From positions 149,048 to 213,047 of the forward strand of contig NZ_JAHXRI010000025.1 of assembly GCF_019923725.1 (NCBI RefSeq): DNA of 64,000 nucleotides, given 5' to 3'. The translations under genes were made by a program, and so were the position numbers. Shown one piece after another: positions 35,045-58,560 of the stretch (its first letter is position 1; every line of letters starts with the position of its first letter). The notes beneath the pieces were generated by a model. It did not search any database and had not been told where the DNA came from. It saw only the letters and a list, made by a program, of their open reading frames with translations. Origin of the DNA: Zwartia hollandica. Lineage in GTDB: Bacteria; Pseudomonadota; Gammaproteobacteria; Burkholderiales; Burkholderiaceae_B.

Positions 35045-35664
35045 TGTGCACGGACACTTGCTCTTTGCGGCGTTCTATTTTGCTAGCGAGCTTGATGCAT
35101 CTTGGCGGGGTTGCAATCCTGATTGTTTTAGCGATGGTAGGTCAGTCACAAAGCACAGCCATGCCTCCTCAAGCGGAATCTGACAACATTCTGATGCTCT
35201 TTGCGAGCCCAGCGCAAGTCACTGAGAACGTTGTGGCTACACAGGTGGTTGCCCAAGCCATAGCGGTTGCCGAGACGCCGCCGGTGCGCTCCGAAGTCAT
35301 CATCGCGAAGGAAATCGTGGCGCGTCCTTCTCCAGCCTCGGTCCCAGTGCAGGGCAAAGAGTTCAAGGAGGTGGTGCACACCGCGTACGAGTATGCGCGA
35401 CCTCAGCATGACCTCAATCCAGTACCAGATTATCCGATCATGCTGCGTCAACGCGGTATTGAAGGTACGGTGTGGTTGCGGGTTTTGGTTGATCGGTCGG
35501 GGCTGCCCGAGCGAATTATCTTATTTAAAACGAGCGGCTATCGCTTGTTCGATGAGTCTGCATTGCGAGCCGTCGCGCGCTGGCGCTTTAAACCCGCGAG
35601 ATCTCAAGGGACTACCATGGCAAGTTGGGTAGAGTTTCCTGTGCGTTTCACTTTGCAGGGATAG
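35044..35664 (+). CDS. tonB: TonB energy transducer
   Basis: This 206-residue protein has one N-terminal membrane anchor (about residues 12-33, LASLMHLGGVAILIVLAMVG), a periplasmic linker with few Pro/Lys repeats, and a C-terminal TonB domain (GIEGTVWLRVLVDRSGLPE to RAVARWRFKPA). It probably serves the heme receptor in the same operon. ExbB and ExbD are not in the window. ATG 35044 shares its A with the hmuV stop; ATG 35014 is an in-frame alternative with an odd N-terminus. The 3' end overlaps the convergent NicB-like gene by 17 bases. Confidence 0.85.
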   Translation: MCTDTCSLRRSILLASLMHLGGVAILIVLAMVGQSQSTAMPPQAESDNILMLFASPAQVTENVVATQVVAQAIAVAETPPVRSEVIIAKEIVARPSPASVPVQGKEFKEVVHTAYEYARPQHDLNPVPDYPIMLRQRGIEGTVWLRVLVDRSGLPERIILFKTSGYRLFDESALRAVARWRFKPARSQGTTMASWVEFPVRFTLQG

Positions 35665-38600: not shown

Positions 38601-39337
38601 AGGTTGCCAACAAAATCACCATGGTCAGCACCTGCATACGGCGGTCTGACGACGCGTCCGTGCAGCATTCCGGGTACGCGCATGTCATGCACGAAGGTAA
38701 GCTGCCCTGTCGCTTTGCCTGGGATGTCAACGCGGGGAATCGGTTGACCGATCGTGTGATGCTCTTCTTGAGCCTTAAGTCTGACCGAAGGATCAAGTAA
38801 CAAACGAATATTGGCCTCACCAACGAGCTCGCCGTAGGTCAGGCGCTGCGTGGGGTGGTCGACCTGCTCGTATAGGACTTCACCACGCTCAGTGTGCAGG
38901 GAGTCTTCATGCGTATTCCATCTGGCTGCCGCTGTTTGCAGCAACCAGCGTCGCGCTTGAGCGGCTGCTTGCCGCAAAGGGGGGCTATGAAGTTGTATGG
39001 AGCCGCTTGCGATCGTTGGACCTTGGTTCGGTGCGCGGCCAGTATCGCCAAGGATCACCTCAACTTGAGCCATTGAAACATCAAGTTCTTCTGCAACGAT
39101 TTGACCGAACGCTGTACGTAGTCCGGTTCCAAGATCTACATGACCGTGGAGTGCAACGACTCGTCCATCAGACCATACCGAAAGCAATACCTCCTGACCC
39201 TCCGCAGGATTAGCAGGTACAGCGGCGGGCTGCCCTTTTGTTGGAGGAGGTGCCGGGAGTGGCTCTCGTACAACGAGCAGCACGCCGGACGCCTCGAGAA
39301 AGTCTTGACGCAGCCGCAGTACTTGGCTAGGTGCCAT
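35648..39337 (-). CDS. nicB: Nicotinate dehydrogenase-like molybdenum subunit fused to triple cytochrome c
   Basis: This 1229-residue protein has a molybdopterin hydroxylase domain (about 1-760; QGPTIASGS near 104, VPLGAGESSSVPG near 714 with the catalytic Glu), a membrane-spanning stretch near 790-810 (LAAVLAGVAGLSLGWIGL) and three c-type heme motifs: CVSCH (about 846), CTACH (about 992) and CAACH (about 1122). This is the layout of NicB, which hydroxylates nicotinate to 6-hydroxynicotinate and passes electrons to the respiratory chain. Isoquinoline 1-oxidoreductase-type enzymes are related. The 6-hydroxynicotinate reductase-like gene in the same operon favours nicotinate. It overlaps the 2Fe-2S subunit gene by 11 bases. 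Confidence 0.85.
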   Translation of the reverse strand: MAPSQVLRLRQDFLEASGVLLVVREPLPAPPPTKGQPAAVPANPAEGQEVLLSVWSDGRVVALHGHVDLGTGLRTAFGQIVAEELDVSMAQVEVILGDTGRAPNQGPTIASGSIQLHSPPLRQAAAQARRWLLQTAAARWNTHEDSLHTERGEVLYEQVDHPTQRLTYGELVGEANIRLLLDPSVRLKAQEEHHTIGQPIPRVDIPGKATGQLTFVHDMRVPGMLHGRVVRPPYAGADHGDFVGNLLESVDETSIAHIPGIKAVVVIRDFIGIVAEREELAEQAANQLRVVWKEWPGLPDLSNLEHALRANPSTPRELINEGNIDAALEDGGTEISRTYIWPYQMHASIGPSCAVADWSNAEPYTLTVWAGTQNPHVLRADLARLTGLTDLDIEIVRMEASGCYGRNGADDVAADAVLLSRAVGAPVRVQLTREQENLWEPKGAAQWMQVRGGLDAAGDFAAYDFQTSYPSNGAPTLALLLTRTIEPLAQTYEMGDRTARPPYQVGNLRVTVNDMPPILRASWLRGVSALPNSFAHESYIDELATQAGVDPVEFRLRYLDDPRARELLQATTDKAGWIRHAEPQQQDTQGDILRGQGVAYARYIHSKWPGFGAAWAAWVADVEVNRRTGEVHVKRVVVGHDAGMTINPAGVEHQVHGNVVQTTSRALHESVPVRKQDNTVATREWGSYPILNFRQVPVIDVLQMPRPNEVPLGAGESSSVPGTAAIANAIFDATGIRFRQPPFTPEVVRAALNPLPPASQPGYPAEQPIQRQLPPTANPNAQWPTRRPFAKRLAAVLAGVAGLSLGWIGLRSPAPIAPITQFNPALYSAQTIEKGRQLVALGNCVSCHTAPGGQPNAGGLGIQTPFGTVYSTNLTPDKATGIGSWSLPAFRRAMRDGVSQDGHLLYPAFPYTSFKNMTDEDITSVYAYLMVQPSVEQKNPSTELSAPFSYRPLMAVWNALYSEPATSQTLLADQGELWNRGAYLVNGVGHCTACHTPRDMLGGEKLGKGFLSGAWIKGWEAPALTAASKSPVRWTEQSFYDYLRTGFSGQHGSAGGPMAPVVQQLASVPDSDIKAMAHYLASFQEAATSARATQAAQDYVVAAQTQSATLLGPAQRMFTMACAACHHDGDGPKLLGANIPLALNTNLHSDKPDNVIRVILEGVRKPASQAIGFMPSFAGQLDDDQILSLVQYMRARFAPDKGAWNDLEPSIARIRLETAKQPNGPIPAK

Positions 39338-39848
39338 GCTTAGCCACCTGAGGATGTTTGGCCTCGCGCATCAGCTGCGCTGCACGCTGAACGGCACGGA
39401 TAATCTCCACATGTGTGCCGCAACGGCAAAAATTCGAAGATAACTCTGAGCGAATTTCTTGCTCGCTGGGTGAGAGCGTCCGTGCCAAGAGAGATGCGGT
39501 CATCATGATCATTCCGTTGAGGCAGTAGCCACATTGTGCTGCCTGTTCGGCAATGAACGCTTGTTGAATGAGATGAGGCTTGGCAAGTGTTCCCAAGCCC
39601 TCTAGCGTTGTGATGGCTCGGCCTTGAACGCCATCGAGCGGGATCACGCAGGAGCGAGCTGCCTGCCCATCGACGAGCACCGTACAGGACCCACATTGAC
39701 CAAGACCACAGCCATATTTAGGTCCATTGAGCCCAAGGTCGTTCCGTAAGAAATTGAGGAGAGGCGTATCTGGATCCAGCTGAGTTTCAACCGCCTGACC
39801 GTTAATGGTCAGATTCAGAGGCTTCGCGTTGATGTTCAGAGAAGGCAT
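39327..39848 (-). CDS. nicA: [2Fe-2S] subunit of nicotinate dehydrogenase-like enzyme
   Basis: This 173-residue electron-transfer subunit has a plant-type ferredoxin site (C47, C52, C55, C67 in GCGLGQCGSC...SC) and a second all-helical [2Fe-2S] site (C106, C109, C141, C143 in QCGYCLNG and NFCRCGTH). It matches NicA/IorA-type small subunits of molybdenum hydroxylases and relays electrons from the Mo centre to the cytochrome part of the large subunit. It lies 6 bases after livF and overlaps the large subunit gene, at the end of a long minus-strand operon. Confidence 0.87.
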   Translation of the reverse strand: MPSLNINAKPLNLTINGQAVETQLDPDTPLLNFLRNDLGLNGPKYGCGLGQCGSCTVLVDGQAARSCVIPLDGVQGRAITTLEGLGTLAKPHLIQQAFIAEQAAQCGYCLNGMIMMTASLLARTLSPSEQEIRSELSSNFCRCGTHVEIIRAVQRAAQLMREAKHPQVAKHGT

Positions 39849-39854
39849 GTGCGC

Positions 39855-40586
39855 TTAAAGGCTCAAGTAAGCGCGTCGCACTGCTTCGTTTTCGTCGAGC
39901 TCGCGCATCGTGCCCGCAAAGCGGATTTGACCTTTTTCTAGGACATAGGCGCGGTCGCACACGAGATTCGCAAAGTGTAGATTCTGTTCGGATAACAAGA
40001 TGCTGACTCCTTGCTGTTTAAGAGCCAAAATCATATGAACCATTTGCTCCACAATGACGGGAGCGATCCCCTCGGACGGTTCGTCGAGTAGGATCAAGTA
40101 GGGATTGCCCATCAGAGACCGCGCAACCGTCAGCATCTGTTGTTCGCCACCACTCATCCGTCCGCCTGGGCGGTGGGGCATCTCGCCAAGGTTCGGGAAA
40201 AGCTTGAAGAGCTTTTCTGGCGTCCAGTGTGGTGCCGCCTCACCGCTAGGCCAAAGACGCGTCGTTTGTCGCCCAACTTCAAGATTCTCTAGGACAGTGA
40301 GATCGGTAAAAATACGTCGATCCTCTGGTACAAAGCCAAGACCCATGCCAGCGATCTCGTGCGTCGAGCGTTGCGAAATGTCGCGCTCCATGAAGTGTAG
40401 CTGACCGCGCCGCTTATCTATCAATCCCATGATAGATTTCATTGTGGTGGATTTGCCTGCGCCGTTGCGTCCCATCAGCGCGACAACCTCACCACGCCCA
40501 ACAGTCAAGTCTACGTCGTACAGAATTTTTGCTGCACCGTACCAAGCCTGCAATCCAGAGACGGCTAGAAGGGTCTGCTGACTCAT
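39855..40586 (-). CDS. Branched-chain-type ABC transporter ATPase (LivF-like)
   Basis: A 243-residue ABC ATPase. Walker A is GRNGAGKST, the signature is MSGGEQQMLTVARSL, and Walker B is YLILLDEPSEGIAP. The EDRRIFTDLTVLENLEVG block is typical of LivF. It pairs with LivG as the second ATPase of the importer encoded by this operon; the cargo is probably nicotinate or a related pyridine acid. It overlaps livG by 4 bases. Confidence 0.87.
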   Translation of the reverse strand: MSQQTLLAVSGLQAWYGAAKILYDVDLTVGRGEVVALMGRNGAGKSTTMKSIMGLIDKRRGQLHFMERDISQRSTHEIAGMGLGFVPEDRRIFTDLTVLENLEVGRQTTRLWPSGEAAPHWTPEKLFKLFPNLGEMPHRPGGRMSGGEQQMLTVARSLMGNPYLILLDEPSEGIAPVIVEQMVHMILALKQQGVSILLSEQNLHFANLVCDRAYVLEKGQIRFAGTMRELDENEAVRRAYLSL

Positions 40587-41368
40587 TGTGAAACCTCTAC
40601 TGCTTTAGAGGGGTTGAGCGCAAAGGTGCTGCCACCACCAAAATAGACCTCTTGTACGTTCCGGTCCTCACGGATAGAGTCGGGTGTGCCGTGCGCAATC
40701 AGTCGTCCACGGGCCAGCACGCTAATGCGATCGGCGTAGGCGAAGACGACATCCATGCTGTGCTCGGTGAAGAGCACAGCAATTCCGCGCTCAATCACTA
40801 GGCGCTTGGTCATCGCCATCATGTCGTTTCGTTCTTTGGGCGCCATACCGGCTGTCGGTTCGTCCATGAGTAACAGTTTTGGCTCATTCGCTAACGCGAT
40901 CGCGAGCTCTACTCGCTTCACGTCGCTATAGGCTAGTTCGCTACAAGGACGATCCGCCTGCTCCTGCATGCCCACCTGGCTCAAAAGTTCGAGTGCTTTG
41001 TCTCGCGCGTGTGAGGAAGCGGGTTTAAAAAAGGAAAACAGCTGGTTGTCGTGAGATAACAAGGCCATCTGCACGTTTTCAATCACCGTCAGGGAGGAAA
41101 ATGTCTCTGCGATCTGAAAGCATCGTCCCACGCCTAAACGCCAAATCGCACGTGGCGCCAGACCGATGAGTTCAGTGCCATTCATTTTGATCGAGCCTCG
41201 ATCGGCCTTGAGTTGACCATTGACCATGTTGAAGGTGGTCGATTTACCTGCGCCGTTTGGTCCGATCAGGGCGAGCAGTTCACCGGCCTTTAAGTCAAAG
41301 TCAATACCATCGACCGCTTTCACGCCTCCGAAAGACTTTCCGAGTCCACGTACAGTGAGCAAGGTCAT
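40583..41368 (-). CDS. Branched-chain-type ABC transporter ATPase (LivG-like)
   Basis: A 261-residue ABC ATPase. Walker A is GPNGAGKST, followed by FNMVNGQLKADRGSI, then RCFQIAETFSSLTVIENVQ, the LivG-specific insertion. Walker B is LLLMDEPTAGMAP and the switch His lies in FTEHSMDVVF. The signature region (LAYSDVKRVELAIAL) departs from LSGGQ, as in many LivG proteins. It overlaps both neighbours by 4 bases. Confidence 0.87.
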   Translation of the reverse strand: MTLLTVRGLGKSFGGVKAVDGIDFDLKAGELLALIGPNGAGKSTTFNMVNGQLKADRGSIKMNGTELIGLAPRAIWRLGVGRCFQIAETFSSLTVIENVQMALLSHDNQLFSFFKPASSHARDKALELLSQVGMQEQADRPCSELAYSDVKRVELAIALANEPKLLLMDEPTAGMAPKERNDMMAMTKRLVIERGIAVLFTEHSMDVVFAYADRISVLARGRLIAHGTPDSIREDRNVQEVYFGGGSTFALNPSKAVEVSQ

Positions 41369-43263
41369 ACGGCCTCCTTGCGCGCTGCTTTGATGCGCTC
41401 GGTAATTTGTGCGGCAAAACCAGCAATGCCTTGGGGAAAGAGTAAGACGAGCAAGAGAATGATGGCGCCTAGCATTGCGCGCCAGTACTCTGTGTTGCGT
41501 GCAACGGTGTCATGCAACCAGGTAAAGGTGAAGGCGCCAACGATCGGCCCTGCAAGGGTTTGAATCCCACCCAAGAGCACCATCACTAAACCATCAATTG
41601 AACGACTGACATGCAAGCTCTCAGGTGAAATGCTCCCCTTAGAGAAGGCAAATAACGCGCCTGCTAAACCTGCAAAGGTGCCTGCCACAATAAAGGCAAC
41701 CCATTGTATTTTCTTTACATCGATCCCAATTGCATCGGCGCGAAGAGGGGAATCTCGACCCGCGCGCAGCGCATACCCAAACGGGGAGTAGAGAAGACGA
41801 CGCATGACGTAGACTGAAATCACCACCAGTCCAAGCGTTAGGAAATAGTAATTTCTCTTGTCCTGTAACCACTGCGCCGGCCACACCCCAGTTAAGCCGT
41901 TACTGCCGCCGGTGAACGCATCCCACTGATAAACGATTGCCCAGGTAATTTGGGCGAAGGCGAGGGTCAACATGGCCAGATATACGCCCGAGAGTCGTAC
42001 ACAAAACCAGCCGTAAAGAAAAGCCCCAAGCGCAGCAACGGCAGGTGCGAGTATCAGACTAAGCTCCATCGGTACGCCGAGGTGTCGGATGAGCAGAGCT
42101 GCACCATACGCGCCCAAGCCAAAATAGGCGGCATGCCCAAACGAGTGAAGCCCTGCTGGCCCCATGATGAAGTGCAAGCTTGCTGCGAAGAGGACAGCGA
42201 TTAAGAGGTCGATCAGCAGGACTGTGACATAAGGTGATTGCGCGGCAAGCCATGGCATGGCAATCAAAGTTAGAACGACCAAGACACCACCCAACTTGTA
42301 GGCGTTCGAGGCCGGACGCAATGGCAATTCGATTTCGGCGGCGTTTCGCGAGGCCGGCTGAGCACGTCCCATTAGTCCCCAGGGTCTGAAGACCAAAACG
42401 ATTGCCATCACGAGAAACTCAACAACGAGTGTTAGCTTGGAGAAAGATATTTGTATTCCGGCGATCTCGACGAGTCCAAGCCAGATGCAAATCGCTTTGA
42501 GTTCCGCGATAAGTAGTGCAGCAACATAGGCACCGGGAATAGAGCCCATGCCACCAACAACGACCACCACGAACGCGGCACCAATCGTATGGAGATCCAT
42601 CTCGAGGTTTGCAGGTTCGCGAGGAAGTTGAAGGGCGCCACCTAGTCCTGCCAGGAGTGCACCAAGTGCGAACACCGCCGTAAAAAGCCATGCTTGGTTG
42701 ACGCCCAGCGCCGCGACCATCTCTCGGTCTTGTGTCGCCGCACGCACAAGGGTGCCCCAACGTGTACGGGTGAGTAATAGCCATAACAAGCCAAGCAAGA
42801 CGGGTCCCACGACAATTAAAAACAGGTCGTAGGAGGGAAAGTTACGACTCAGAATTTCGACAGAGCCCTTGAGTCCTGGGGCACGAGGCCCGAGTAGTTC
42901 TTCAGGCCCCCAGATCCATAGCACAGCGTCTTTGATGACGAGCACCAAGGCAAAAGTGGCTAGAAGTTGGAATAGTTCGGGTGCGCGATAGATGCGACGC
43001 AACAGCGTGACTTCAATGACTGCGCCCAGCAGACCGACGGCCAAAGGGGCTAATAATAGAGCTGGCCAAAAACCAATACTCGCCGACAGTTTCTCAACGA
43101 GCGTGTATGCGATATAGATGCCCACCATAAAAAACGAGCCGTGGGCAAAGTTCACAATCCGGGTTACCCCGAAAATCAAGGATAGCCCCGCCGCCACAAG
43201 AAAAAGTGACGACGCGCCCGCTAGACCATTGAGCAGTTGAACAATCAAGCTTGAAAGGTCCAT
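41365..43263 (-). CDS. Fused LivH-LivM type ABC permease
   Basis: This 632-residue membrane protein carries both permease halves of a branched-chain-type importer. Residues 1 to about 300 are LivH-like (FGVTRIVNFAHGSFFMVGIY, GGMGSIPGAYVAALLIAE). Residues about 320 to 632 are LivM-like (GPAGLHSFGHAAYFGLGAYG, VMLLGGIQTLAGPIVGAFTF-like block). The two are usually separate genes; here one polypeptide would form the whole channel. It is followed by livG and livF and preceded by the binding protein after a 34-base AT-rich gap. Confidence 0.87.
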   Translation of the reverse strand: MDLSSLIVQLLNGLAGASSLFLVAAGLSLIFGVTRIVNFAHGSFFMVGIYIAYTLVEKLSASIGFWPALLLAPLAVGLLGAVIEVTLLRRIYRAPELFQLLATFALVLVIKDAVLWIWGPEELLGPRAPGLKGSVEILSRNFPSYDLFLIVVGPVLLGLLWLLLTRTRWGTLVRAATQDREMVAALGVNQAWLFTAVFALGALLAGLGGALQLPREPANLEMDLHTIGAAFVVVVVGGMGSIPGAYVAALLIAELKAICIWLGLVEIAGIQISFSKLTLVVEFLVMAIVLVFRPWGLMGRAQPASRNAAEIELPLRPASNAYKLGGVLVVLTLIAMPWLAAQSPYVTVLLIDLLIAVLFAASLHFIMGPAGLHSFGHAAYFGLGAYGAALLIRHLGVPMELSLILAPAVAALGAFLYGWFCVRLSGVYLAMLTLAFAQITWAIVYQWDAFTGGSNGLTGVWPAQWLQDKRNYYFLTLGLVVISVYVMRRLLYSPFGYALRAGRDSPLRADAIGIDVKKIQWVAFIVAGTFAGLAGALFAFSKGSISPESLHVSRSIDGLVMVLLGGIQTLAGPIVGAFTFTWLHDTVARNTEYWRAMLGAIILLLVLLFPQGIAGFAAQITERIKAARKEAV

Positions 43264-43297
43264 GCAGGCAGGGCTCCTTAATTAATTAATAAATGCA

Positions 43298-44512
43298 TTA
43301 ATCCGCAGGACGAAGCTTTTTTACTTCTTCTGCAGAAGGTAATACGGTTGCGCCATCGATGTAACGGAACGTGCCCATCACACCCTTCCCGTTCTCAAGT
43401 TTAGTACGACCCACATAGCCTCCCATCGTCGATTGGTGATCCTCAGGGCGGTAAGTGACGCTGCCAAAAGGTGACATGAGCGTCAAGCCACGGAAGGCCG
43501 TGATTAGCTTTTCAGTATCTGTACTTTGGGCTTTTTTAATCCCGGCGGCCAGAGACATGATGGCGCTATAACCGACAACGGAGCCAAGTCTTGGGTAGTC
43601 TTTGAACTTGGCCTCATAGGCATTCTTGAAGGCGTCATGTTCGGGTGTCTTGATTGCATACCAAGGGTATCCCGTTACTAACCAGCCTGTTGGGCTTTCG
43701 TCTTTGAGTGGATCCAGGTACTCTGGCTCTCCAGTCAGGAGACTCACAACCTCTCGACCTTTAAACAGCCCGCGCGTATTACCTTCGCGGACAAAACGTG
43801 AAAGGTCCGCTCCAAATAAGACGTTGAAGATCGCATCCGGTTTGGCATCTCCTAGAGCTTGCACCACGCTACCCGCATCTACTTTTCCCAATGGTGTTGC
43901 TTGCTCAGCCACAAATTCGATATCTGGTTGAGCAGCCTTCATCAGTGTTTTGAAGGTCGCCGCTGCAGATTGACCGTATTCATAATTTGGGTAAACGATT
44001 GCCCAGCGCTTCTTTTTCATGGCACTAGCTTCTGGCACTAACATCGCCACTTGCATGTGGGTGGAAGGGCGCAGACGGAACGTGTAGCGGTTACCGTTTT
44101 GCCAGACAATTTTGTCCGTTAACGGTTCGCTTGCAAGAAAGAAAACCTTTTTCTGCTTCGCAAAATCCGTGAGTGCTAAGCCAATATGTGACAGAAATGA
44201 TCCAGTCAGGACATCGACTTTATCGCGTGAAATAAGTTCCTCGGCGACGCGCACTGCATCGCCTGGGTTTGCATTGTCATCACGCGTAATCAGTTGAACT
44301 TTCTTTCCATTTAATCCACCTGCTGCATTGATTTGATCAATCGCCAGCTCCATCCCCTTTTTGTAGGGCTCCAAGAAAGCGGGCTGCGCTTTATAGCTAT
44401 TGATCTCCCCAATTTTGATGACGTCCTGTGCCGTGGCTGCGATAGACGCACCGAGCAGTGAGGCGCCTAAGAAAAATGACGCTGTGATGCGTTTGGTAAA
44501 TATGCGACGCAT
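43298..44512 (-). CDS. ABC transporter substrate-binding protein (LivK-type)
   Basis: This 404-residue type I periplasmic binding protein has a signal peptide (RIFTKRITASFFLGASLLGASIAATA) ending before QDVIKIGEIN. The core includes GMELAIDQINAAGGLNGKKV, VLTGSFLSHIGLALTDFA and WAIVYPNYEYGQSAAATF. I chose ATG 44512, preceded by AGGAGA; an upstream ATG at 44575 would overlap the previous gene and mask the signal peptide. It should bind the substrate of the degradation operon, probably a pyridine carboxylate. Confidence 0.85.
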   Translation of the reverse strand: MRRIFTKRITASFFLGASLLGASIAATAQDVIKIGEINSYKAQPAFLEPYKKGMELAIDQINAAGGLNGKKVQLITRDDNANPGDAVRVAEELISRDKVDVLTGSFLSHIGLALTDFAKQKKVFFLASEPLTDKIVWQNGNRYTFRLRPSTHMQVAMLVPEASAMKKKRWAIVYPNYEYGQSAAATFKTLMKAAQPDIEFVAEQATPLGKVDAGSVVQALGDAKPDAIFNVLFGADLSRFVREGNTRGLFKGREVVSLLTGEPEYLDPLKDESPTGWLVTGYPWYAIKTPEHDAFKNAYEAKFKDYPRLGSVVGYSAIMSLAAGIKKAQSTDTEKLITAFRGLTLMSPFGSVTYRPEDHQSTMGGYVGRTKLENGKGVMGTFRYIDGATVLPSAEEVKKLRPAD

Positions 44513-44543
44513 GAAGTTCTCCTGGAAATTAAAACTGTTTTTA

Positions 44544-45128
44544 TTAACGTAAGCCATCTTTACCCTCGATTTCACTAGCCTGCAGGCCGCCGATACGAGG
44601 CAAAGGGCGACCGCTATCCGTTACTGCGACTGCAACGACGATTTCTTTTGCACCTGGAGCATCTGTCACGCGTGCTTCAATTGCGTCAAAGTGACTGCGG
44701 ACAAAGGCCGCATCTTTGTGGCCTAGCGGCACGTCAATCGCACAACCTGGTCCACCGCGTTTTTTACTTGAGGGAACGAGCGCCGCGCCTTGCTGCACAG
44801 CTTGACGCAGCGGAGCACCTAACTTAGGGTGCAGAATTGCCGCTGCGTGCTCGAGTTCGCCAGCCTCTCCGACTATTGCCGCTTTTCCATAGCTTTGAGC
44901 CTGCTCTGGCTTGATGCCTAGCGCTTGCACACACTTGTTGCCAAGAAGGGCGCCTAGCTCCTCTCCTATTTGAATCAACGCGTCTAGATTTTGGCTAAAG
45001 GTGCCGGCATAAGGATTTTCAATGACGGCAATGGCAAGTGCTCTGCGCGTAGGGGGCGAGACAACCTGACCCATTTCAAGATGGGTCTCATCGACCTGAA
45101 CGATGAGTTTGCGAATCTTTGCGGCCAT
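44544..45128 (-). CDS. Amino acid synthesis (AA_synth) family protein, function unknown
   Basis: This 194-residue protein is of the AA_synth (former DUF1185) family: RKLIVQVDETHLEMGQ at the start, VIENPYAGTFSQNLDALI, YGKAAIVGEAGELEHAAAILHP, and AVTDSGRPLPRIGGLQASEI at the end. The biochemical role of the family is not established. Here it lies 27 bases downstream of UPF0280 and before the importer genes in a nicotinate-type operon, so a metabolic or maturation role in the reductive pyridine pathway is likely. The family name should not be taken as a function. Confidence 0.75.
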   Translation of the reverse strand: MAAKIRKLIVQVDETHLEMGQVVSPPTRRALAIAVIENPYAGTFSQNLDALIQIGEELGALLGNKCVQALGIKPEQAQSYGKAAIVGEAGELEHAAAILHPKLGAPLRQAVQQGAALVPSSKKRGGPGCAIDVPLGHKDAAFVRSHFDAIEARVTDAPGAKEIVVAVAVTDSGRPLPRIGGLQASEIEGKDGLR

Positions 45129-45155: not shown

Positions 45156-46040
45156 TTAGTGAATTTGATTGCGAACAATGTGGGGCGAAGCTGTGCTGAC
45201 GATCCAGCCTTGACAGGTCAAGATGCAATCAGAGATTAAACCGCTTTGTTTCATTTGTAGAGCCTGCTGTAAACCCTGTTGCAAGGCATGCTGAATTGTG
45301 TCTGAAGCTAAAGGGGGAACATGCACAGTGACAAGTCGTTGCCCCAAGTCGGAGTTATCTTTGACTTCGTTGGCAGGTTGTCGCTCAACGGCGGGATGGT
45401 CGGTATCAACAGCATTCGCGATTACAGTTGCAGCAGCATCGGCCAAACTTGCGGTGGCGGCTAAAACGGTGACGCTATCGGCGATGCCGAGAGACAGGCT
45501 GCGACCTCGCCAACCGCTCGTGGCGACGCCGCGAACAGGCATTGCGTAATCGATGCTTAGTGTCCCATCCAAGGTAAGCCCTTGTTTAAGCGCGTGAGCA
45601 TCAAACTTTGACAGGTCGGCAAACAAGCCAATGTCAACTTTTGTTCCAGGTGTTAAATACAGCGCAATGTCACCACCATTGTTTACCCAAGCCCGCGTGA
45701 CACCGGGCTGCTGGTAGAACGTAATAAGTGCCTGTGCAACAGAGCCCGCCACGGCTGCCATCGGCGTAATAAAGTCGCTCGGGCAGCGTTGGCAGGCCTC
45801 CCACATTACTTGGGCGATTGGGCCTGTCACGGGGCAGGCAGATTGTTGCTTGACGGGTTGGCGTAGTGTCGGTAGTTCTTGAACGAGCTCAGTCAGGATT
45901 GTTGCGAAGCGTTCAGATGCAGCATGATGCGCGTCCGCCACTGCGGTCCGATCGCCTTCGGCATGCGCCACGATATCGATTGGACCGTGTTGAAAGTGTA
46001 GACGTCCGTCTTCCAGCACGACAGAGGTTGCATGTGACAT
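45156..46040 (-). CDS. UPF0280 protein (ApbE superfamily)
   Basis: This 294-residue protein of the UPF0280 family belongs to the ApbE (flavin transferase) superfamily. The segment AWVNNGGDIALYL resembles the VNxGGDI motif of ApbE, and FITPMAAVAGSVAQALITF and SLADAAATVIANAVD are further conserved blocks. Its start is 6 bases from the stop of the 6-hydroxynicotinate reductase-like gene. The E. barkeri reductase carries covalent flavin, so this protein is a candidate flavin-attaching or cofactor protein for it. That is inference. Confidence 0.75.
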   Translation of the reverse strand: MSHATSVVLEDGRLHFQHGPIDIVAHAEGDRTAVADAHHAASERFATILTELVQELPTLRQPVKQQSACPVTGPIAQVMWEACQRCPSDFITPMAAVAGSVAQALITFYQQPGVTRAWVNNGGDIALYLTPGTKVDIGLFADLSKFDAHALKQGLTLDGTLSIDYAMPVRGVATSGWRGRSLSLGIADSVTVLAATASLADAAATVIANAVDTDHPAVERQPANEVKDNSDLGQRLVTVHVPPLASDTIQHALQQGLQQALQMKQSGLISDCILTCQGWIVSTASPHIVRNQIH

Positions 46041-46046
46041 GTTTGC

Positions 46047-47570
46047 TTAACCTAGCATTGGCGGCATGCCTAACGGCCACGGGGTATCCTCGCGTGGAGC
46101 TACCCATAATCTGTTCTGCGGCGCTCCGTCGTCATGCCAGGCACCTTCTCGTAGGACCTGATCCAGCCCTCGCACATAATCGACATGCCCACCCAGCTGT
46201 TTGAAATCATCCGCGCGCATGCTGAACTCAATCGGCGCAACGATCGCTGGGGTTGGAACGGTACCGAAACTATTGTCGGGCATACGCAGTACGTCGACCA
46301 TCACAGTAATCCCGCCGCCTGGCCAGACATAGGCCGGGGCTCCACCGCAGGTGACATTGACGAGCGCCTGTTTGATCGCTCTGGTCAATAGAATCGGGTT
46401 GTTTGTTACCCCTGCACGCAGGCTACCTCCCGCACCACCCAAGAACAGCACGGATGCCAGCGACGGCTCACAGTTTTCACCTATGCGGTCGATGACAGTT
46501 TGAACTGCATCAGGCATCGCTTGCTCAATGGGGCGCAACTGCTCGTCTAGGACGTACCAGCAGGCATGTTCGCCGGTTGTCGAGGTCATCAGCAAGCGCA
46601 GGCCTGGCCAGGCGATATCGGGCTCCCAGCTTTCAATAATGCTCAAGGGATCAGCAATATCTGTCCCGCCCCAGCCCGTGCCAGGGTTGGCAACTTGAAA
46701 ATAGCGCCCAGGTGTCGAGCGCCTGCCGCCAATGACAATTCCAGAGGCGCGCATACCCAAGCACTTACCTGCCTGGTGCTCGGTCAGCACACCAGTAATG
46801 TGGTCATCCACAACAACCACCTCGTCGGCGAGCTCGGAAAACTGCTGCGCAAAAATCCCAATCGCGGCTGAACCACACCCAACGCGCATGCGTCGCTCTT
46901 CTATGCCGTTGACGATCGGCGCTCGGCCCGCCTGCACGATCAGGTTTGATCCGCCTTCGATGTCGAGCTCAACAGCTTGTTTGTTGCCTAGCGTCTGCAT
47001 CATCTCCATGGTGATGCGACCCTCTTTTTTACTTCCACCAGTTAGGTGATGTACGCCACCGAGCGAGAGCATTTGCGACCCGTACTCAGCAGTGGTGACA
47101 TGACCAACGACTTCGCCCCGGCAGCGCACATTTGCCTGCTCAGGCCCGAGGTAGCGATCAGTGTCAATTTTGACCTTTAGGCTGCAGTAGCTGAAGATGC
47201 CTTCGGTGACAACGGTCACCATGTCAACACCATCTACTTGCGAGCCGACGATAAAAGGAGCTGGCTTGTAGTCGGGGTAAGTTGTGGAAGACCCGACACC
47301 CGAGACAAAAACTTGGTTGGCGTGCAGTAAGTCCTGGTCCCAGGCTTGCGCTTGCTCGGTTGTCCCCAGCTTTTGAGGGTCGACGAACGGGACTAGCGCT
47401 GGAGTTTCATTGTTTTGTAGGCTGCGGTTCAGCAAGACAACAGGATCCACCCGAATGAGCGTTCCATTTGCGTTTGCATACCGGTCGCAGGCGCCGGTCT
47501 TTCCCGGACTGATCTGGCATAACACCGGGCAAGCGTTACATTCGATCTTTGCTTTAGTCTGGTCTGTCAT
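46047..47570 (-). CDS. hnr: 6-hydroxynicotinate reductase-like iron-sulfur flavoprotein
   Basis: This 507-residue protein is related to 6-hydroxynicotinate reductase of Eubacterium barkeri, which reduces 6-hydroxynicotinate to 1,4,5,6-tetrahydro-6-oxonicotinate with ferredoxin. An N-terminal cysteine cluster (C11, C14, C18, C28 in CNACPVLCQ...GAC) can hold an FeS centre. More conserved Cys follow (SYCSLKVKIDTD, NVRCRGEVVGHVTTAEYGSQ, RVGCGSAAIG). It is first in the minus-strand operon and divergent from a TetR regulator. An enamidase, the next enzyme of the known pathway, is on the other side. Those neighbours make the assignment stronger than sequence alone. Confidence 0.82.
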   Translation of the reverse strand: MTDQTKAKIECNACPVLCQISPGKTGACDRYANANGTLIRVDPVVLLNRSLQNNETPALVPFVDPQKLGTTEQAQAWDQDLLHANQVFVSGVGSSTTYPDYKPAPFIVGSQVDGVDMVTVVTEGIFSYCSLKVKIDTDRYLGPEQANVRCRGEVVGHVTTAEYGSQMLSLGGVHHLTGGSKKEGRITMEMMQTLGNKQAVELDIEGGSNLIVQAGRAPIVNGIEERRMRVGCGSAAIGIFAQQFSELADEVVVVDDHITGVLTEHQAGKCLGMRASGIVIGGRRSTPGRYFQVANPGTGWGGTDIADPLSIIESWEPDIAWPGLRLLMTSTTGEHACWYVLDEQLRPIEQAMPDAVQTVIDRIGENCEPSLASVLFLGGAGGSLRAGVTNNPILLTRAIKQALVNVTCGGAPAYVWPGGGITVMVDVLRMPDNSFGTVPTPAIVAPIEFSMRADDFKQLGGHVDYVRGLDQVLREGAWHDDGAPQNRLWVAPREDTPWPLGMPPMLG

Positions 47571-47609
47571 CCGAATCCACTAGCTTTTGTCAAAATTTCA
47601 TGTTGCAAT

Positions 47610-47626
47610 TACTACATTAATTAGTA
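47610..47626. promoter_or_regulatory. Candidate operator in hnr-tetR divergent region
   Basis: The 83-base gap between hnr and the TetR gene holds TACTACATTAATTAGTA, an inverted repeat with 5-base arms (TACTA/TAGTA). Its core ACTACATTAATT matches 11 of 12 bases with ACTACATCAATT (52220-52231) upstream of nadC. The position between regulator and target operon is typical for a TetR site. Neither start codon here has a strong ribosome site. Confidence 0.45.
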
Positions 47627-47653
47627 CCTTATTACATTTGTTGCCCTCTGGCA

Positions 47654-48346
47654 ATGACTCTTATGATTCTGTCTCCAAACGGCTCGGCGCAAGACGACTC
47701 CCCTCGAAAGTTAGGGGTGCGTGAAAAAGCGGCCCTCGCAACGCGTGCGAGCTTGTTGCGAGCGGCCATTAAGATCTTTGCGCAATACGGGTTGGATGGC
47801 GGCAGCGTCGACAAAATTTCGAAGGCAGCCAAGTCGCACGATCGAATGATTTATTACTATTTTGGTAATAAGGAAGGCCTGTTCGTTGCGGTGATTGAGG
47901 AAATCTATAAGCGTTTTAACGTGGCGGAATCTAAGCTCAAGCTTGATTTACTCGATCCGTTGCGCTCGCTAGAGAAGATTGTTCAGTTTATTTTGCGCTA
48001 CTACCGGGATCACCCAGAATTCGTCACGTTACTGAATATTGAAAACCTGCACAAAGGCAAGCACATTGGTAAGGCGAGCTTTCGGGACTATTCATCGACA
48101 GCCATTGGCGTGATTGATCAAGTGCTGACTACCGGCGCGCAGGCGGGAGTGTTTAGCAAACAGCTCAAAGCGCGTGATCTGTATATGATGATTGCTGCGC
48201 TTGGTTATTTTTATCAGTCGAACCGCTATACGCTCTCCGCGTTTTTAGGTGAAAACTTAGAGGCGCAGAGCGCGTTTGATCAGTGGGAAAACTTTGTTAT
48301 CTCTACGGTGCTTAAAACGATTGCACCGGACTCCTCTAACTCCTGA
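47654..48346 (+). CDS. TetR/AcrR family transcriptional regulator
   Basis: This 230-residue protein has the N-terminal HTH (RASLLRAAIKIFAQYG, then DGGSVDKISKAAKSHDRMIYYYFGNKEGLF), the classic TetR DNA-binding domain. The C-terminal ligand domain is longer than average and contains many aromatic residues. It lies divergently to the hnr operon and 12 bases upstream of the enamidase gene, so it likely represses both until a pathway intermediate binds. ATG 47654 and ATG 47663 are both possible starts. Confidence 0.87.
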   Translation: MTLMILSPNGSAQDDSPRKLGVREKAALATRASLLRAAIKIFAQYGLDGGSVDKISKAAKSHDRMIYYYFGNKEGLFVAVIEEIYKRFNVAESKLKLDLLDPLRSLEKIVQFILRYYRDHPEFVTLLNIENLHKGKHIGKASFRDYSSTAIGVIDQVLTTGAQAGVFSKQLKARDLYMMIAALGYFYQSNRYTLSAFLGENLEAQSAFDQWENFVISTVLKTIAPDSSNS

Positions 48347-48358
48347 AGGAAGACAAGT

Positions 48359-49558
48359 ATGGCGCACGCCGTCGTTGAAGAAAAATCTGGAAAGGTCGTT
48401 ATTAAAAATATCGGGTTACTGCTCTCCGGTGATTTAGATCGTCCGATTTTGGACGCCGACACGGTCGTTGTGCAAGACGGAATTATTACGGCGGTTGGTA
48501 AGGAAAAAGACTGCGATATCGCGCATGCAGACTTATTGATCGATGCCCAAAAGACCTGTTTGGCGCCAGGACTCATCGATAGCCATGTGCACCCCGTTTT
48601 TGGTGACTGGACGCCGCGGCAAAATCAGTTGGGATGGATTGAATCCACCATGAACGGTGGTGTGACCACCATGATTTCAGCAGGAGAGGTCCACCTGCCT
48701 GGACGTCCGAAGGATATCGTCGGTCTGAAGGCTTTGGCCATTACCGCGCAACGCGCTTTCGATAGTTTTAGACCAGGCGGCGTCAAAGTGCTGGCTGGTG
48801 CGCCAGTGATCGAAAAAGGGATGACCGAGCAAGACTTCAAAGACCTGGCAGATGCAGGTGTTAAGTTGCTAGGTGAGGTCGGTTTAGGTTCTGTGAAGGC
48901 TGGTGAAGAGGCCCAGAAGATGGTGGCCTGGGCGCGTAAACATGGCATACAGAGCACGATCCATACCGGCGGACCCTCGATTCCCGGATCGGGCCTGATT
49001 GATAAGGATGTAGTACTTGAGGCGGACGCTGACATTATCGGTCACATCAACGGGGGGCACACGTCCTTATCCGAGGCGCATGTCTGCGAGTTATGTGAGA
49101 AATCCACACGTGGAATTGAAATTGTTCACAATGGCAACGAAAAGGTAGCGATTGCTGCCGCGCAGCACGCGATTCAGCTAAAGTGCCCGCATCGTGTGAT
49201 TCTCGGCACGGACGGACCTGCAGGGTCGGGTGTGCAGCCGCTGGGTATTTTGCGCATGATTGCCTTGCTGTCTAGTCTGGGCAATATCCCTCCTGAGCTT
49301 GTGTTTTGCTTTGCCACCGGAAATACTGCGCGCATGCGTAATCTGAACTGTGGCTTGATCGAGCCGGGTCGTGCAGCAGATTTTGTTTTCATGGACCGCG
49401 CCCAGCATACAGCCGGTCGTGATTTGCTCGACAGCGTGCGCTTAGGCGATATTCCCGGTATTGGTATGGTCATGATTGATGGTTTGGTCAGATGCCATCG
49501 CAGTCGCAATACGCCACCCGCAACAGAAGTGCCCGTGATCGTGAGGCAACACACCTAG
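48359..49558 (+). CDS. Enamidase-like amidohydrolase
   Basis: This 399-residue metal-dependent amidohydrolase resembles enamidase of E. barkeri, which opens 1,4,5,6-tetrahydro-6-oxonicotinate to 2-formylglutarate and ammonia. Metal-site residues are visible: H76 and H78 (DSHVHP), Glu173 (LLGEVGLG), His202 (STIHTGG), His229 (IIGHING) and Asp285 (LGTDGPAG). The start VVIKNIGLLLSGD also fits. GAAGGAAG precedes ATG 48359. It follows the TetR gene and ends 4 bases from the convergent phnN/phosphorylase fusion. With hnr and nicAB it completes three consecutive steps. Confidence 0.85.
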   Translation: MAHAVVEEKSGKVVIKNIGLLLSGDLDRPILDADTVVVQDGIITAVGKEKDCDIAHADLLIDAQKTCLAPGLIDSHVHPVFGDWTPRQNQLGWIESTMNGGVTTMISAGEVHLPGRPKDIVGLKALAITAQRAFDSFRPGGVKVLAGAPVIEKGMTEQDFKDLADAGVKLLGEVGLGSVKAGEEAQKMVAWARKHGIQSTIHTGGPSIPGSGLIDKDVVLEADADIIGHINGGHTSLSEAHVCELCEKSTRGIEIVHNGNEKVAIAAAQHAIQLKCPHRVILGTDGPAGSGVQPLGILRMIALLSSLGNIPPELVFCFATGNTARMRNLNCGLIEPGRAADFVFMDRAQHTAGRDLLDSVRLGDIPGIGMVMIDGLVRCHRSRNTPPATEVPVIVRQHT

Positions 49559-49562
49559 ATTC

Positions 49563-51338
49563 TTAGGCGATGCGGAAACCGTTATCGCGTTCTGCCGACT
49601 TAACCGTTTTATTCAACAAAACGGGGTCGCAGGACTGAATCCGATACAGCAAATCGCCAGGCTGTACGCGGCTGCCTGTTGGCTGGACGATATCAACTCC
49701 AGCGAGCTTGTCGAAGGGAGCGCCGGCCATACGTGCTAGCCCCGAGATGACGAACCCATCTATCTGACGCACGGTTCCTGCCTGTGTCGCATAAACAGGA
49801 TGCTTGAGGATGCCAGACAGATCGGGCCAGTCGTGCGAGCCTTGGGCCTGGATGATGTTTTCCATGGCCTCGCGCGCTGCGCCTGAAACTAACAATCTCT
49901 GTGCGACTTCGGCCCCTTTTTCCACTGTTCCAACGGCGGGATCCATCGCCAGGATCTGGCTGGCGAAGAAGAGTGATTTTTCTAAGAGATCGCTTGGAGC
50001 GTCCGGGTGTTGCTCTAGCACCTGGAGCACATCCCGAACTTCAAGAGAAGGACCGATGCCGCGCCCAATGGGCGATTCACCGCTTGTGGCGAAGGCTTTG
50101 ACAACAAGACCCAACTCGCGACCTACCATTTCAAAGAGCTGGCCTAAGGCGAGCCCGTCCTCTTTTGATTTGACCTTTCCCGCTTCAGCATACGGGATGT
50201 CAATCACAACATGAGTCGCACCTGCGGAGTATTTCTTTGAGAGTATCGAGGCGACGGACCACTTGCGCGTATCGAGTCCAAGCGGACGGGTGATGGCATT
50301 CATCGCGTCATCTAGGACGGAGTGATTAAGCTTCCCGTTCCAAGCAATACATGCATTCGCTTTCGCTACGCATTGTTTAAGCTCCTCAGGTGTCAGATCG
50401 ACTTTAGCGATAACTTCCATTGCGTCTGCGGTGCCAGCTGCTGAAGTAATGGCGCGCGACGATGTCTTGGGAATCATTAAGCCATGTGCGGCGACAATGG
50501 GAATCACAACCATCGTCACGCGGCTGCCTGGTAGCCCACCTAAAGAGTGTTTGTCGACCACCATGGGACGACCCCAGTCAATACGAGGCAGAATCTTTGT
50601 GCGTGCTTTTGCAATCGCAATCATTTCCTCGTCTGACAGCTCTACCGTGCAAGCAATCAGGAAGGCTTGTAACTCTGCCTCTTGAGTCTTAGCCGACAGG
50701 ATCGTCTCGATCGCAGTCTGATACTCAGCAGGTGTTAAGGCGCGTCCGGCAATTTTCTTGAACAGAATGCGCGAGGAGGGCGGCGCGCTGTCCGTTTCTG
50801 TCAGGAGACAAGCTAGTAATCTGATCGTGCCGATCGCAAGCGATTGATCATTGACGACTTTGAGTAGTGGTGTTCCCGCTGGATAAGGCTCAACAGACCG
50901 ACTCAACCGCTTGGCAATATCATCGGCAGACTCTCGTCCACGGGCGTTCAGTCTTGTTTGTAGAACGTGTGCAGGTGCGTTGATTTCGATGACAACTAAG
51001 TTAGGCACCAGTTGGCTTAGCGCCTTGATCATGCCGCGCGAGCCATTCGCAATCACATGCTGCCCAGACCTGAGTGCATCGAGTAGCTCGATCGGTAGCC
51101 CGTAGTGCAAACCATGTGCCTGCCAGGAAATCAAAAATTTCCCAGCCGCATTGAGTCTCTGGAAATCGGCTTCAGTGCAAGCAGTATGCACTTCCCCAGG
51201 CGATCCCTCCGGGCGCGTGATCGTGCGCTTGGCAAAGATAAAGCGTGACGGGTCGAGCGACGGTCGAACACCATCGAGCAGGCTGTCTTTGCCTGCTCCG
51301 CTGGGGCCAACAACAAAAAAGAAGCTACCTGCGGCCAT
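49563..51338 (-). CDS. Fusion: PhnN-like ribose 1,5-bisphosphokinase + AMP phosphorylase-like domain
   Basis: This 591-residue protein has two parts. Residues 1 to about 185 are a P-loop kinase (FFVVGPSGAGKDSLLDGVRP, FAKRTITRPEG, HGLHYGLP) of the PhnN type, which phosphorylates ribose 1,5-bisphosphate to PRPP. From about 200 to the end is a thymidine/AMP phosphorylase-family domain. The segment KHSLGGLPGSR (near 262) and IPKTSSRAITSAAGTADAME fit archaeal-type AMP phosphorylases, which make ribose 1,5-bisphosphate from a nucleotide and phosphate. One protein could thus turn a nucleoside monophosphate into a free base plus PRPP. It lies 9 bases after nadC. Confidence 0.83.
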   Translation of the reverse strand: MAAGSFFFVVGPSGAGKDSLLDGVRPSLDPSRFIFAKRTITRPEGSPGEVHTACTEADFQRLNAAGKFLISWQAHGLHYGLPIELLDALRSGQHVIANGSRGMIKALSQLVPNLVVIEINAPAHVLQTRLNARGRESADDIAKRLSRSVEPYPAGTPLLKVVNDQSLAIGTIRLLACLLTETDSAPPSSRILFKKIAGRALTPAEYQTAIETILSAKTQEAELQAFLIACTVELSDEEMIAIAKARTKILPRIDWGRPMVVDKHSLGGLPGSRVTMVVIPIVAAHGLMIPKTSSRAITSAAGTADAMEVIAKVDLTPEELKQCVAKANACIAWNGKLNHSVLDDAMNAITRPLGLDTRKWSVASILSKKYSAGATHVVIDIPYAEAGKVKSKEDGLALGQLFEMVGRELGLVVKAFATSGESPIGRGIGPSLEVRDVLQVLEQHPDAPSDLLEKSLFFASQILAMDPAVGTVEKGAEVAQRLLVSGAAREAMENIIQAQGSHDWPDLSGILKHPVYATQAGTVRQIDGFVISGLARMAGAPFDKLAGVDIVQPTGSRVQPGDLLYRIQSCDPVLLNKTVKSAERDNGFRIA

Positions 51339-51347
51339 GCTCTCGCG

Positions 51348-52178
51348 TTACTCGTCGAGCCCGATATCGACCGCTGGAGCCGCTTGTGTAATCTTGCTGG
51401 TCGAAATGTAATCGACACCTGTCATGGCGATTGCGTGGATGGTGTCGATACGGATGCCGCCGGAGGCTTCTATTTTGGCGCGCCCATTTACTAACTTGAC
51501 AGCCTTTGCCATTTCATCAACGGACATGTTGTCCAGCATGATGACATCGACCTGTGCATCAAGCGACTCTTGCACTTGTTCAATGCGATCACACTCAACT
51601 TCGATTTTTGTGAGGACTGGGAGTCTCTCGCGCACGCGCTCGACGGCCTTTTTGATATTGCCGGCGATGGCGATGTGGTTATCTTTGAGCATCACACCGT
51701 TGTCGAGGCCGAGTCGGTGATTTAAGCCACCACCGCAGGTCACGGCGTGCTTTTCTAACATGCGCAACCCTGGTGTGGTTTTGCGGGTGTCGATTAGCTT
51801 GGCTTTGGTGCCAGCCATGGCGGCGCAGTAGCGTGCTGTCTCTGTGGCAATCCCGCACAGCAGTTGAAGAATGTTGAGGGCAGGGCGCTCTGCTGTCACG
51901 ATGCTTCGGGCTGGACCCGAAATCGTCATGATGCGCTTGCCCTTTTCTACGCGCTCACCATCTTTAACCAGTTTGGTGATGGTCAAGCGCGAGTCGTATC
52001 GGGTGAAAATGCGGGCAGCCACATCAATTCCGGCGATATGCATGGGTTCGCGGGCATTCATGTGAAAGGTGCTGATCGCGTCTTCGTCGATCATGAGTTG
52101 AGCGGTGAGGTCGCAGGAGCCAATATCTTCGGTCAGCCAAAGATCAATGAGGCGCTCAATCTGGAAATGATCGTACAT
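51348..52178 (-). CDS. nadC: Quinolinate phosphoribosyltransferase (nicotinate-nucleotide pyrophosphorylase)
   Basis: This 276-residue enzyme converts quinolinate and PRPP to nicotinate mononucleotide, CO2 and PPi. The conserved core is complete: DTRKTTPGLRMLEKHAV, GGGLNHRLGLDNGVMLKDNH, KIEVECD, DVIMLDNMS, EASGGI. So it is NadC rather than a degenerate ModD paralogue. nadA and nadB are absent. Instead it is followed by a PhnN-phosphorylase fusion and sits beside nicotinate catabolic genes, suggesting a catabolic role. ATG 52178 is preceded by AAGG, and a strong palindrome lies 31-48 bases upstream. Confidence 0.92.
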   Translation of the reverse strand: MYDHFQIERLIDLWLTEDIGSCDLTAQLMIDEDAISTFHMNAREPMHIAGIDVAARIFTRYDSRLTITKLVKDGERVEKGKRIMTISGPARSIVTAERPALNILQLLCGIATETARYCAAMAGTKAKLIDTRKTTPGLRMLEKHAVTCGGGLNHRLGLDNGVMLKDNHIAIAGNIKKAVERVRERLPVLTKIEVECDRIEQVQESLDAQVDVIMLDNMSVDEMAKAVKLVNGRAKIEASGGIRIDTIHAIAMTGVDYISTSKITQAAPAVDIGLDE

Positions 52179-52208
52179 GAGGATACCTTTATAAAAGCGG
52201 AAATTTTT

Positions 52209-52226
52209 ATGTAGTGTTCACTACAT
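52209..52226. promoter_or_regulatory. Palindromic operator ATGTAGTG-TT-CACTACAT upstream of nadC
   Basis: Perfect 8-base arms surround a 2-base centre. The site lies 31-48 bases before the nadC start and 26 bases after the LysR gene stop (both minus strand). No T-run follows on either strand in the direction of transcription, so it is not a terminator. The right arm with its flank (ACTACATCAATT) closely matches part of the site between hnr and tetR, suggesting control by the same regulator. Confidence 0.6.
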
Positions 52227-52252
52227 CAATTCCTCATGCTAATGCAGTTTTT

Positions 52253-53173: not shown

Positions 53174-53298
53174 GGGCAGTGCTTTTTAAGCATAGAAGTC
53201 AAAGTAAATAGCATTGGAAATGCAAACCTTATTCAAGCAAAGTATGGCTGGTACATATTAACGGGCTAATTTCGCCGTCAACGACTAGGGAGCTACAC

Positions 53299-54231: not shown

Positions 54232-54264
54232 GGCAAGCAGAATACTTAACAAACGGAGACAGAC

Positions 54265-55912: not shown

Positions 55913-55928
55913 ACTTTAAAGCATCGTT

Positions 55929-57092: not shown

Positions 57093-57119
57093 TATTCTTA
57101 CAAAAAAAATGGAGAAAAA

Positions 57120-58352: not shown

Positions 58353-58425
58353 ACCGGCTGGCCCGACGTTATCTCTACCTAGGGCCGCGCGGTTGATTTC
58401 AAGATCGACGAGTGAATGTCCTGCT

Positions 58426-58467
58426 AAGGCGTTTTTTGACAGAGTTTGTGAGGTTCAAAAGCGCCTT
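58426..58467. repeat. Inverted repeat between selenoprotein gene and NRPS gene
   Basis: AAGGCGTTTTT (58426-58436) pairs with AAAAGCGCCTT (58457-58467) with one G-T pair, extended by GA/TC after a bulge, around a 15-base loop. It lies in the 208-base gap between 58352 and 58561. No T-run follows the downstream arm, so it is not a standard terminator on the plus strand. A second short hairpin GCCC/GGGC (58506-58517) is closer to the NRPS start. A TTGACA at 58436-58441 has no good partner -10. Confidence 0.4.
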
Positions 58468-58560
58468 CGCCCTTAAAATCAAGCAGTTATATAAAGGTGT
58501 TGCGAGCCCTGCGGGGCAAGTAATCCTTTATTTGTTCTGACTGATTTTCTGATTGGGCGT

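Follow-up and report, generated by a model that had tools for sequence, protein, structure and literature searches.

In the window, the 64,000-nt stretch of Zwartia hollandica DNA (contig NZ_JAHXRI010000025.1) analyzed here, the quinolinate phosphoribosyltransferase gene nadC is followed after 9 bp by a single gene fusing a PhnN-like ribose 1,5-bisphosphokinase to a nucleoside monophosphate (NMP) phosphorylase domain. The two genes probably constitute a conserved module that converts quinolinate to nicotinate for breakdown, with phosphoribosyl pyrophosphate (PRPP) regenerated by the fusion protein. An earlier note on this DNA, made from its letters alone, had described the gene pair as lying beside nicotinate degradation genes and had proposed such a cycle. 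We confirmed the gene order and its setting next to genes for 6-hydroxynicotinate reductase (Hnr), NicAB and enamidase, and the catabolic reading gained support from co-occurrence across genomes and from an operator common to nadC and Hnr, which the earlier note had not reported. Gene order, clade membership, co-occurrence and the shared operator sequence were read directly from the genomes; three enzyme activities, and binding of the operator by a TetR protein, are predicted from them. The components of the module are as follows.

51348..52178, minus strand: nadC, quinolinate phosphoribosyltransferase of the fusion-linked clade (TIGR00078, solved quinolinate phosphoribosyltransferases [QAPRTases], residues and tree)
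49563..51338, minus strand: PhnN/NMP-phosphorylase fusion, 591 aa (profiles, alignment and structure model)
50805..51329, minus strand: PhnN (ribose 1,5-bisphosphokinase) domain, residues 4-178 (TIGR02322)
49569..50786, minus strand: NMP-phosphorylase domain, residues 185-590, lacking the N-terminal domain found in the archaeal enzyme (profiles and clade-specific residues)

In the proposed cycle, NadC would phosphoribosylate and decarboxylate quinolinate (quinolinate + PRPP -> nicotinate mononucleotide [NaMN] + CO2 + pyrophosphate [PPi]), the phosphorylase domain would release the base (NaMN + phosphate [Pi] -> nicotinate + ribose 1,5-bisphosphate), and the PhnN domain would recharge the sugar (ribose 1,5-bisphosphate + ATP -> PRPP + ADP), a reaction established for the PhnN family and predicted for the fusion. 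The net conversion would be quinolinate + ATP + Pi -> nicotinate + CO2 + ADP + PPi, costing one ATP per quinolinate plus one PPi released, and nicotinate would then enter the NicAB, Hnr and enamidase steps. In the NadC family, quaternization of the ring nitrogen enables decarboxylation at C2. Phosphorolysis is downhill when the substrate is a pyridinium glycoside. The stereochemistry also closes, with alpha-PRPP giving beta-NaMN, alpha-bisphosphate and alpha-PRPP again, both glycosyl transfers being inverting in these families. Use of quinolinate as a carbon source without recycling would cost one ribose for each quinolinate, a drain that would account for the three parts staying together. We further consider it reasonably likely that PRPP serves here as a recycled covalent carrier for decarboxylation: quinolinate would be phosphoribosylated, CO2 would leave, and the sugar would be phosphorolyzed off and recharged with ATP, making NaMN an intermediate of carbon and nitrogen catabolism. 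The full module would then comprise the NadC clade, a fused NaMN phosphorylase/ribose 1,5-bisphosphokinase and an uptake system, distributed over alpha-, beta- and gammaproteobacteria, and the bisphosphate would be passed between two domains of one protein.

The earlier note had proposed searching other genomes for nadC next to the fusion. Among the best 80 loci of a contig scan, 20 of them with the PhnN part and 60 without it, nadC adjoins 19 of the 20 fusions, in alpha-, beta- and gammaproteobacteria. At one of these (L025) a MarR gene lies between fusion and nadC, and at another (L028) only a piece of nadC is present at the contig end; the twentieth fusion locus (L087), which has no nadC beside it, starts 140 bp from a contig end. 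No nadC was found near the standalone phosphorylases of these 80 loci (0/60, many with short flanks). Among the organisms with the fusion are Cupriavidus, Caballeronia, Variovorax, Ottowia, Bosea, Salinicola, Pseudomonas and Rhodospirillales. Genes for uptake systems of four types (major facilitator superfamily, ATP-binding cassette [ABC], tripartite ATP-independent periplasmic and TctC/Bug; one representative per kind identified) lie by the pair in 12 of the 19 loci, MarR regulators also occur beside it, and this combination fits a catabolic unit for a compound taken up from outside. Two TctC proteins, Bug27 and Bug69, bind quinolinate according to the accessible part of PMC11452294. In a sample of 399 genomes from the order, too small to give a count for the order as a whole, 32 had a strong match to the fusion query; nadC lies alongside in three (G000, the window's genome, G163 and G361), G202 has a partial match without a locus, and most others match from about residue 180 on, like standalone enzymes.

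The pair also co-occurs with pyridine degradation elsewhere, as the earlier note would predict. Hnr was found in 12 of 20 fusion-bearing genomes and a NicB homolog sharing 50% or more identity across most or all of the molybdenum (Mo) part in 15, so that 19 of the 20 have one or the other. Within the window's genus, 25 genomes were compared: the fusion is present in 17 (in some cases in pieces), nadC in 16 and Hnr in 16, and each of the 16 nadC genes has the fusion, whole or in part, as its neighbor. The eight fusion-less genomes (G001, G003, G007, G011, G014, G021-G023), two of them 100% complete, have neither nadC nor Hnr. Two exceptions look like assembly limits: G018, in which the fusion begins at base 10 of a contig, and G020, which is 65% complete and has no Hnr. 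In a high-quality subset (at least 90% complete, at most 5% contaminated; n = 14), the eight genomes with the fusion have Hnr in 8/8 and nadC in 7/8, the eighth being cut at a contig end, and the six without it have neither gene. Fisher tests gave 8e-6 each for fusion with nadC and fusion with Hnr; they ignore kinship and are indicative only. Lone PhnN-like frames with 53–58% identity to the PhnN part of the fusion occur in two fusion-less members of the genus (G001:C178:3671-4192 and G007:C117:10605-11162), the latter with an internal TAG.

These counts bear on an alternative in which the pair serves the supply of nicotinamide adenine dinucleotide (NAD), with NadC salvaging quinolinate to NaMN and the fusion helping to supply PRPP. 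In its accessible part, PMC11452294 reports a nadC-phnN-bug27 neighborhood for Variovorax and Jezberella, interprets it in terms of NAD metabolism, with PRPP as the NadC donor, and describes quinolinate salvage by NadC in Bordetella, where, as in the window, nadC occurs without nadA and quinolinate comes from outside. The absence of nadA claimed in the earlier note was borne out (no match in the window's genome, 0/25 in the genus), and nadC is present in the window's genome in a single copy, which is compatible with a role in NAD supply. That note had also held that a sole nadC needed only for NAD synthesis would speak against the cycle; the sole copy was confirmed, but the comparison across genomes speaks against an exclusive need for NAD. 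No nadC was found in 9 of the 25 genus genomes (the eight fusion-less ones and G018), nor was nadA; members of the genus thus live without nadC and do not need it for NAD. The search for pncB, made in the window's genome, found the gene, and therefore NAD can come from nicotinate there. In the copy-number sample of 20 fusion-bearing genomes, two of them from the window's genus, a second nadC above cut-off is present in six, in five of which it lies within 0.21 kb of nadA; beside the second nadC of G054, nadA is split into two matches. Three further genomes have nadA together with the linked nadC only (G058), with nadC in two pieces (G046) or with a sub-cut-off nadC-like match (G060). A phosphorylase that cleaves nucleotides would have no evident use in NAD assembly, and the operator described below is common to nadC and Hnr and not to pncB. 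Taken as the main function of the pair, NAD supply thus appears unlikely.

The palindrome ATGTAG-N6-CTACAT (its form in the genus) lies 5' of nadC and 5' of Hnr, in the window at the latter site between Hnr and a TetR-family gene.

52209..52226: operator ATGTAGTGTTCACTACAT, 31 nt 5' of nadC
47600..47617: operator ATGTTGCAATTACTACAT, between Hnr and TetR
46047..47570, minus strand: Hnr (by the source names of homologs)
47654..48346, plus strand: TetR-family regulator (TetR_C_29) that may read the operator

Scanning with the pattern ATGTWG-N6-CTACAT at no more than one mismatch, a pattern fitted after both sites were known, returned four strand hits at these two places in the window against 0.29 expected, and none of 100 shuffles had as many. 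Single operator sites prove little, and the strength of this observation is repetition across genomes. In a scan of 51 loci (194 kb, with redundant sites and with L175, which belongs to a different family within the order), all 42 hits fall 30–178 nt 5' of nadC (25 hits, 15 genomes) or Hnr (17 hits, 15 genomes). The operator thus precedes nadC in 15/16 genomes with nadC and Hnr in 15/16 genomes with Hnr, and the two exceptions lack upstream sequence, the gene sitting at a contig end or in a fragment. Since the nadC and Hnr loci lie on different contigs in several genomes (G004, G005, G019 and others), the sharing of the operator is not explained by physical linkage. At the same threshold the operator was absent from L040-L102 (63 loci, 1.03 Mb) and from 19 other nadC loci; with two mismatches allowed, it was found neither at pncB nor at Hnr in two relatives lacking the fusion. 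Beyond the genus, operator copies that differ at one or two positions stand 5' of Hnr and sometimes 5' of nadC. The TetR protein next to Hnr is the likely candidate reader of the operator, and a TetR homolog also stands in a run divergent from Hnr in L200. In that locus a flavin oxidoreductase gene (L200:3258-4049), missing at that place in the window, lies between operator and tetR and is possibly the electron supply of Hnr. The LysR gene at 52253-53173 was considered as a conserved nadC regulator and rejected, the operator occurring without a LysR match in L004, L006-L008, L010-L013, L016 and L017 (short flanks).

The NadC of the window scores 316 bits against TIGR00078 (cut-off 198) and also matches solved QAPRTases. 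Pocket and ribose contacts of the pig enzyme are Arg138, Lys139, His160, Arg161, Lys171, Glu201 and Asp222 (PMC3633916, accessible part). Paired with these by motif, the window's R132, K133, H154, R155, K165, E195 and D216 provide a basic pyridine-carboxylate pocket and acidic ribose contacts, and these residues, together with R98, are invariant in 32/32 linked-clade NadCs. The fusion-linked NadCs form one clade (32 versus 19 other NadCs; support 100/98), with 54–100% identity to the window's NadC in the clade and at most 46% outside it. The nearest outsider is L197, a second nadC on a long branch in G030, a genome without the fusion. Distances among NadCs and among phosphorylases correlate over 29 loci (Mantel r 0.83, 0/2000 permutations).

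Conservation of these quinolinate-site residues weighs against the idea that the substrate of NadC and the fusion is a hydroxylated dicarboxylate, for example 6-hydroxyquinolinate, from which 6-hydroxynicotinate would be released directly to Hnr. L035 and L037 would accord with such a substrate, having Hnr but no close NicB in the genome and only a distant Mo-hydroxylase adjoining Hnr; against this stand the close NicB-type proteins of 15/20 fusion-bearing genomes, and we regard this possibility as very improbable.

In the fusion, the PhnN domain scores 168 bits against TIGR02322 (cut-off 156). The phosphorylase domain exceeds the subfamily cut-off of NF003338/PRK04350 (521 versus 434 bits) and stays far under the equivalog cut-off of thymidine phosphorylase TIGR02643 (102 versus 571 bits); the PKTSSRAITSAAGTAD stretch of 4ga5 is identical in an alignment with it. 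Its match to AMP phosphorylase TIGR03327 begins at profile position 84, the N-terminal domain of AMP phosphorylase being missing in the window's form. Some alpha- and gammaproteobacterial fusions (L030, L035 and L046; 678–738 aa) retain the N-terminal part of the phosphorylase profile, NF003338 being matched from position 2-5. A structure model of the fusion has a mean predicted local distance difference test score (pLDDT) of 90, lowest near residues 291-300 and 331-340 (block means 56 and 60).

The fused phosphorylases form one clade with 100/100 support (36 versus 30 of the 63 standalone enzymes and the archaeal one). The standalone bacterial NMP phosphorylases (L040-L102 minus L046, L075 and L087) group apart and have their own set of fixed residues (DKHC, P, Q). 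When 36 nadC-linked domains were compared with 63 standalone bacterial ones, positions 246, 265, 300, 334, 339, 347 and 360 were M, C, P, G, L, I and Q in 63/63 standalone enzymes and position 350 was E in 62/63, whereas the linked domains have R, S, A, N, H, N and W, and T at position 350, in 34 to 36 of 36. The archaeal enzyme has S and A as in the linked group, but M, G, L, I, L and E at 246, 334, 339, 347, 360 and 350. Residues 334-360 presumably border the base, by homology with thymidine phosphorylase, and the linked clade has there N334, H339, N347, T350 and W360 in place of G, L, I, E and Q. Loss of a conserved Glu with gain of His and Asn would be expected of a pocket for a carboxylate-bearing base.

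This replacement of residues that are fixed in other phosphorylases weighs against a general nucleotide-degrading role, in which the fusion would break down AMP, CMP, UMP, or NaMN from NAD turnover and return ribose as PRPP, with nadC merely a PRPP consumer. The general family match would allow it, and the Thermococcus kodakarensis enzyme takes all natural NMPs (PMC8376864, accessible part), yet none of the 60 standalone phosphorylases among the best 80 loci lies beside nadC, and the shared operator and Hnr co-occurrence point to pyridines. We therefore consider this role very unlikely.

Several observations weigh against conversion of quinolinate to nicotinate by the module. All three enzyme activities are predictions for these proteins, and the substrate of the phosphorylase domain is not readable from its sequence family: against TIGR03327 it scores 358 bits, under the equivalog cut-off of 535, and the structure model is least sure where the pocket residues sit (block means 56 and 60). 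In the window's genome nadC occurs once, and in 11/20 fusion-bearing genomes the linked nadC is the sole copy with no nadA, so that in those genomes the linked nadC probably also supplies NAD from quinolinate. The genus counts are not independent, given shared ancestry. One fusion-bearing genome (G056) has neither Hnr nor a close NicB, Hnr occurs in 2/24 fusion-less genomes, and the NicB counts come without a control rate, a NicB-type match not necessarily being a nicotinate hydroxylase. At two half-site mismatches the window holds 2 operator sites against a mean of 2.8 in five mononucleotide shuffles, and beyond the genus nadC is preceded by copies carrying one or two mismatches or by none at all (as in L036/L113).

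In the window, the nadC-fusion pair converges with a TetR-enamidase pair, with 4 bp between the ends of the fusion and enamidase genes, and beyond the latter pair a minus-strand series runs from Hnr to NicB. In addition to the genes already given, the region contains:

48359..49558, plus strand: enamidase (match to 2vun, 374 bits, residues 11-391)
45156..46040, minus strand: UPF0280-type protein (NF003322) of the Hnr run
44544..45128, minus strand: PF06684 AA_synth protein of the Hnr run
39855..44575, minus strand: branched-chain-type ABC importer (Liv-like; translations read by eye, no family search made)
39327..39848, minus strand: NicA-type 2Fe-2S subunit (matches include 3hrd nicotinate dehydrogenase)
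35648..39337, minus strand: NicB-type molybdopterin/cytochrome c protein

The nicotinate context of the locus is sound, because the enamidase aligns to the solved enamidase 2vun over almost its full length and those Hnr homologs that carry a name are 6-hydroxynicotinate reductases; Hnr itself had no Pfam, NCBIfam or PDB match. The UPF0280 and PF06684 proteins adjoin Hnr in the window, L028, L030 and L031 (UPF0280 also in L035 and L037) and may be as yet unassigned steps of the Hnr-type nicotinate route. An Rfam scan of 47000-59000 returned nothing at gathering scores. Next to the LysR gene, a plus-strand run at 53299-57092 with DapA-like, Bug (TctC-like), short-chain dehydrogenase/reductase and enolase-like genes (names from reading the translations) is probably a sugar-acid operon unrelated to the nadC-fusion module. 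Two same-frame open reading frames at 57120-58352 are separated by a single TGA (57594-57596; ...SPV-TGA-PLC...) and, read with selenocysteine, give a 410-aa relative of the D-proline reductase PrdB/GrdB selenoproteins (TIGR04483 122 bits, cut-off 300); this is probably a selenoprotein gene, for which the Rfam scan, the only search made for a selenocysteine insertion sequence, gave no match.

The proposed conversion combines elements of several known systems. In the archaeal AMP (pentose bisphosphate) pathway, the bisphosphate released by AMP phosphorylase is isomerized and passed to Rubisco, whereas in the present case the fused PhnN domain would phosphorylate it, giving PRPP; relative to the T. 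kodakarensis enzyme, the window's domain falls under the AMP_phos cut-off, has other pocket residues and lacks the N-terminal domain. The fusion shares with PhnN of the carbon-phosphorus lyase pathway a domain above the TIGR02322 cut-off, from a family that makes PRPP from ribose 1,5-bisphosphate, and differs in having this domain joined to a phosphorylase and in being paired with nadC. Eubacterium barkeri ferments nicotinate via nicotinate dehydrogenase, Hnr and enamidase; the window's enamidase matches 2vun and its Hnr belongs to that family by homolog names, with a proposed quinolinate branch in front. Plants obtain nicotinate from NaMN through an NaMN glycohydrolase route, but by hydrolysis, so that the activated ribose is lost. 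The earlier note knew of no described pathway of this kind. Neither bacterial quinolinate breakdown through NaMN nor a PRPP-recycling cycle was described in the literature searched, a weak negative given that most subscription journals lay outside its coverage; the nadC-phnN neighborhood, on the other hand, was already in print under another reading, and the accessible part of that paper (PMC11452294) says nothing of a phosphorylase domain, a link to Hnr, an operator or a catabolic cycle.

If the proposed conversion is correct, it would provide an entry for quinolinate into bacterial pyridine breakdown, a role for NadC beyond NAD synthesis and an NaMN phosphorylase, none of which we found described in the literature searched. 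It would also give a concrete function to a gene family labeled "thymidine phosphorylase" or "PhnN" in databases, and the presence of a nadC of the linked clade would signal consumption of quinolinate rather than NAD synthesis from aspartate.

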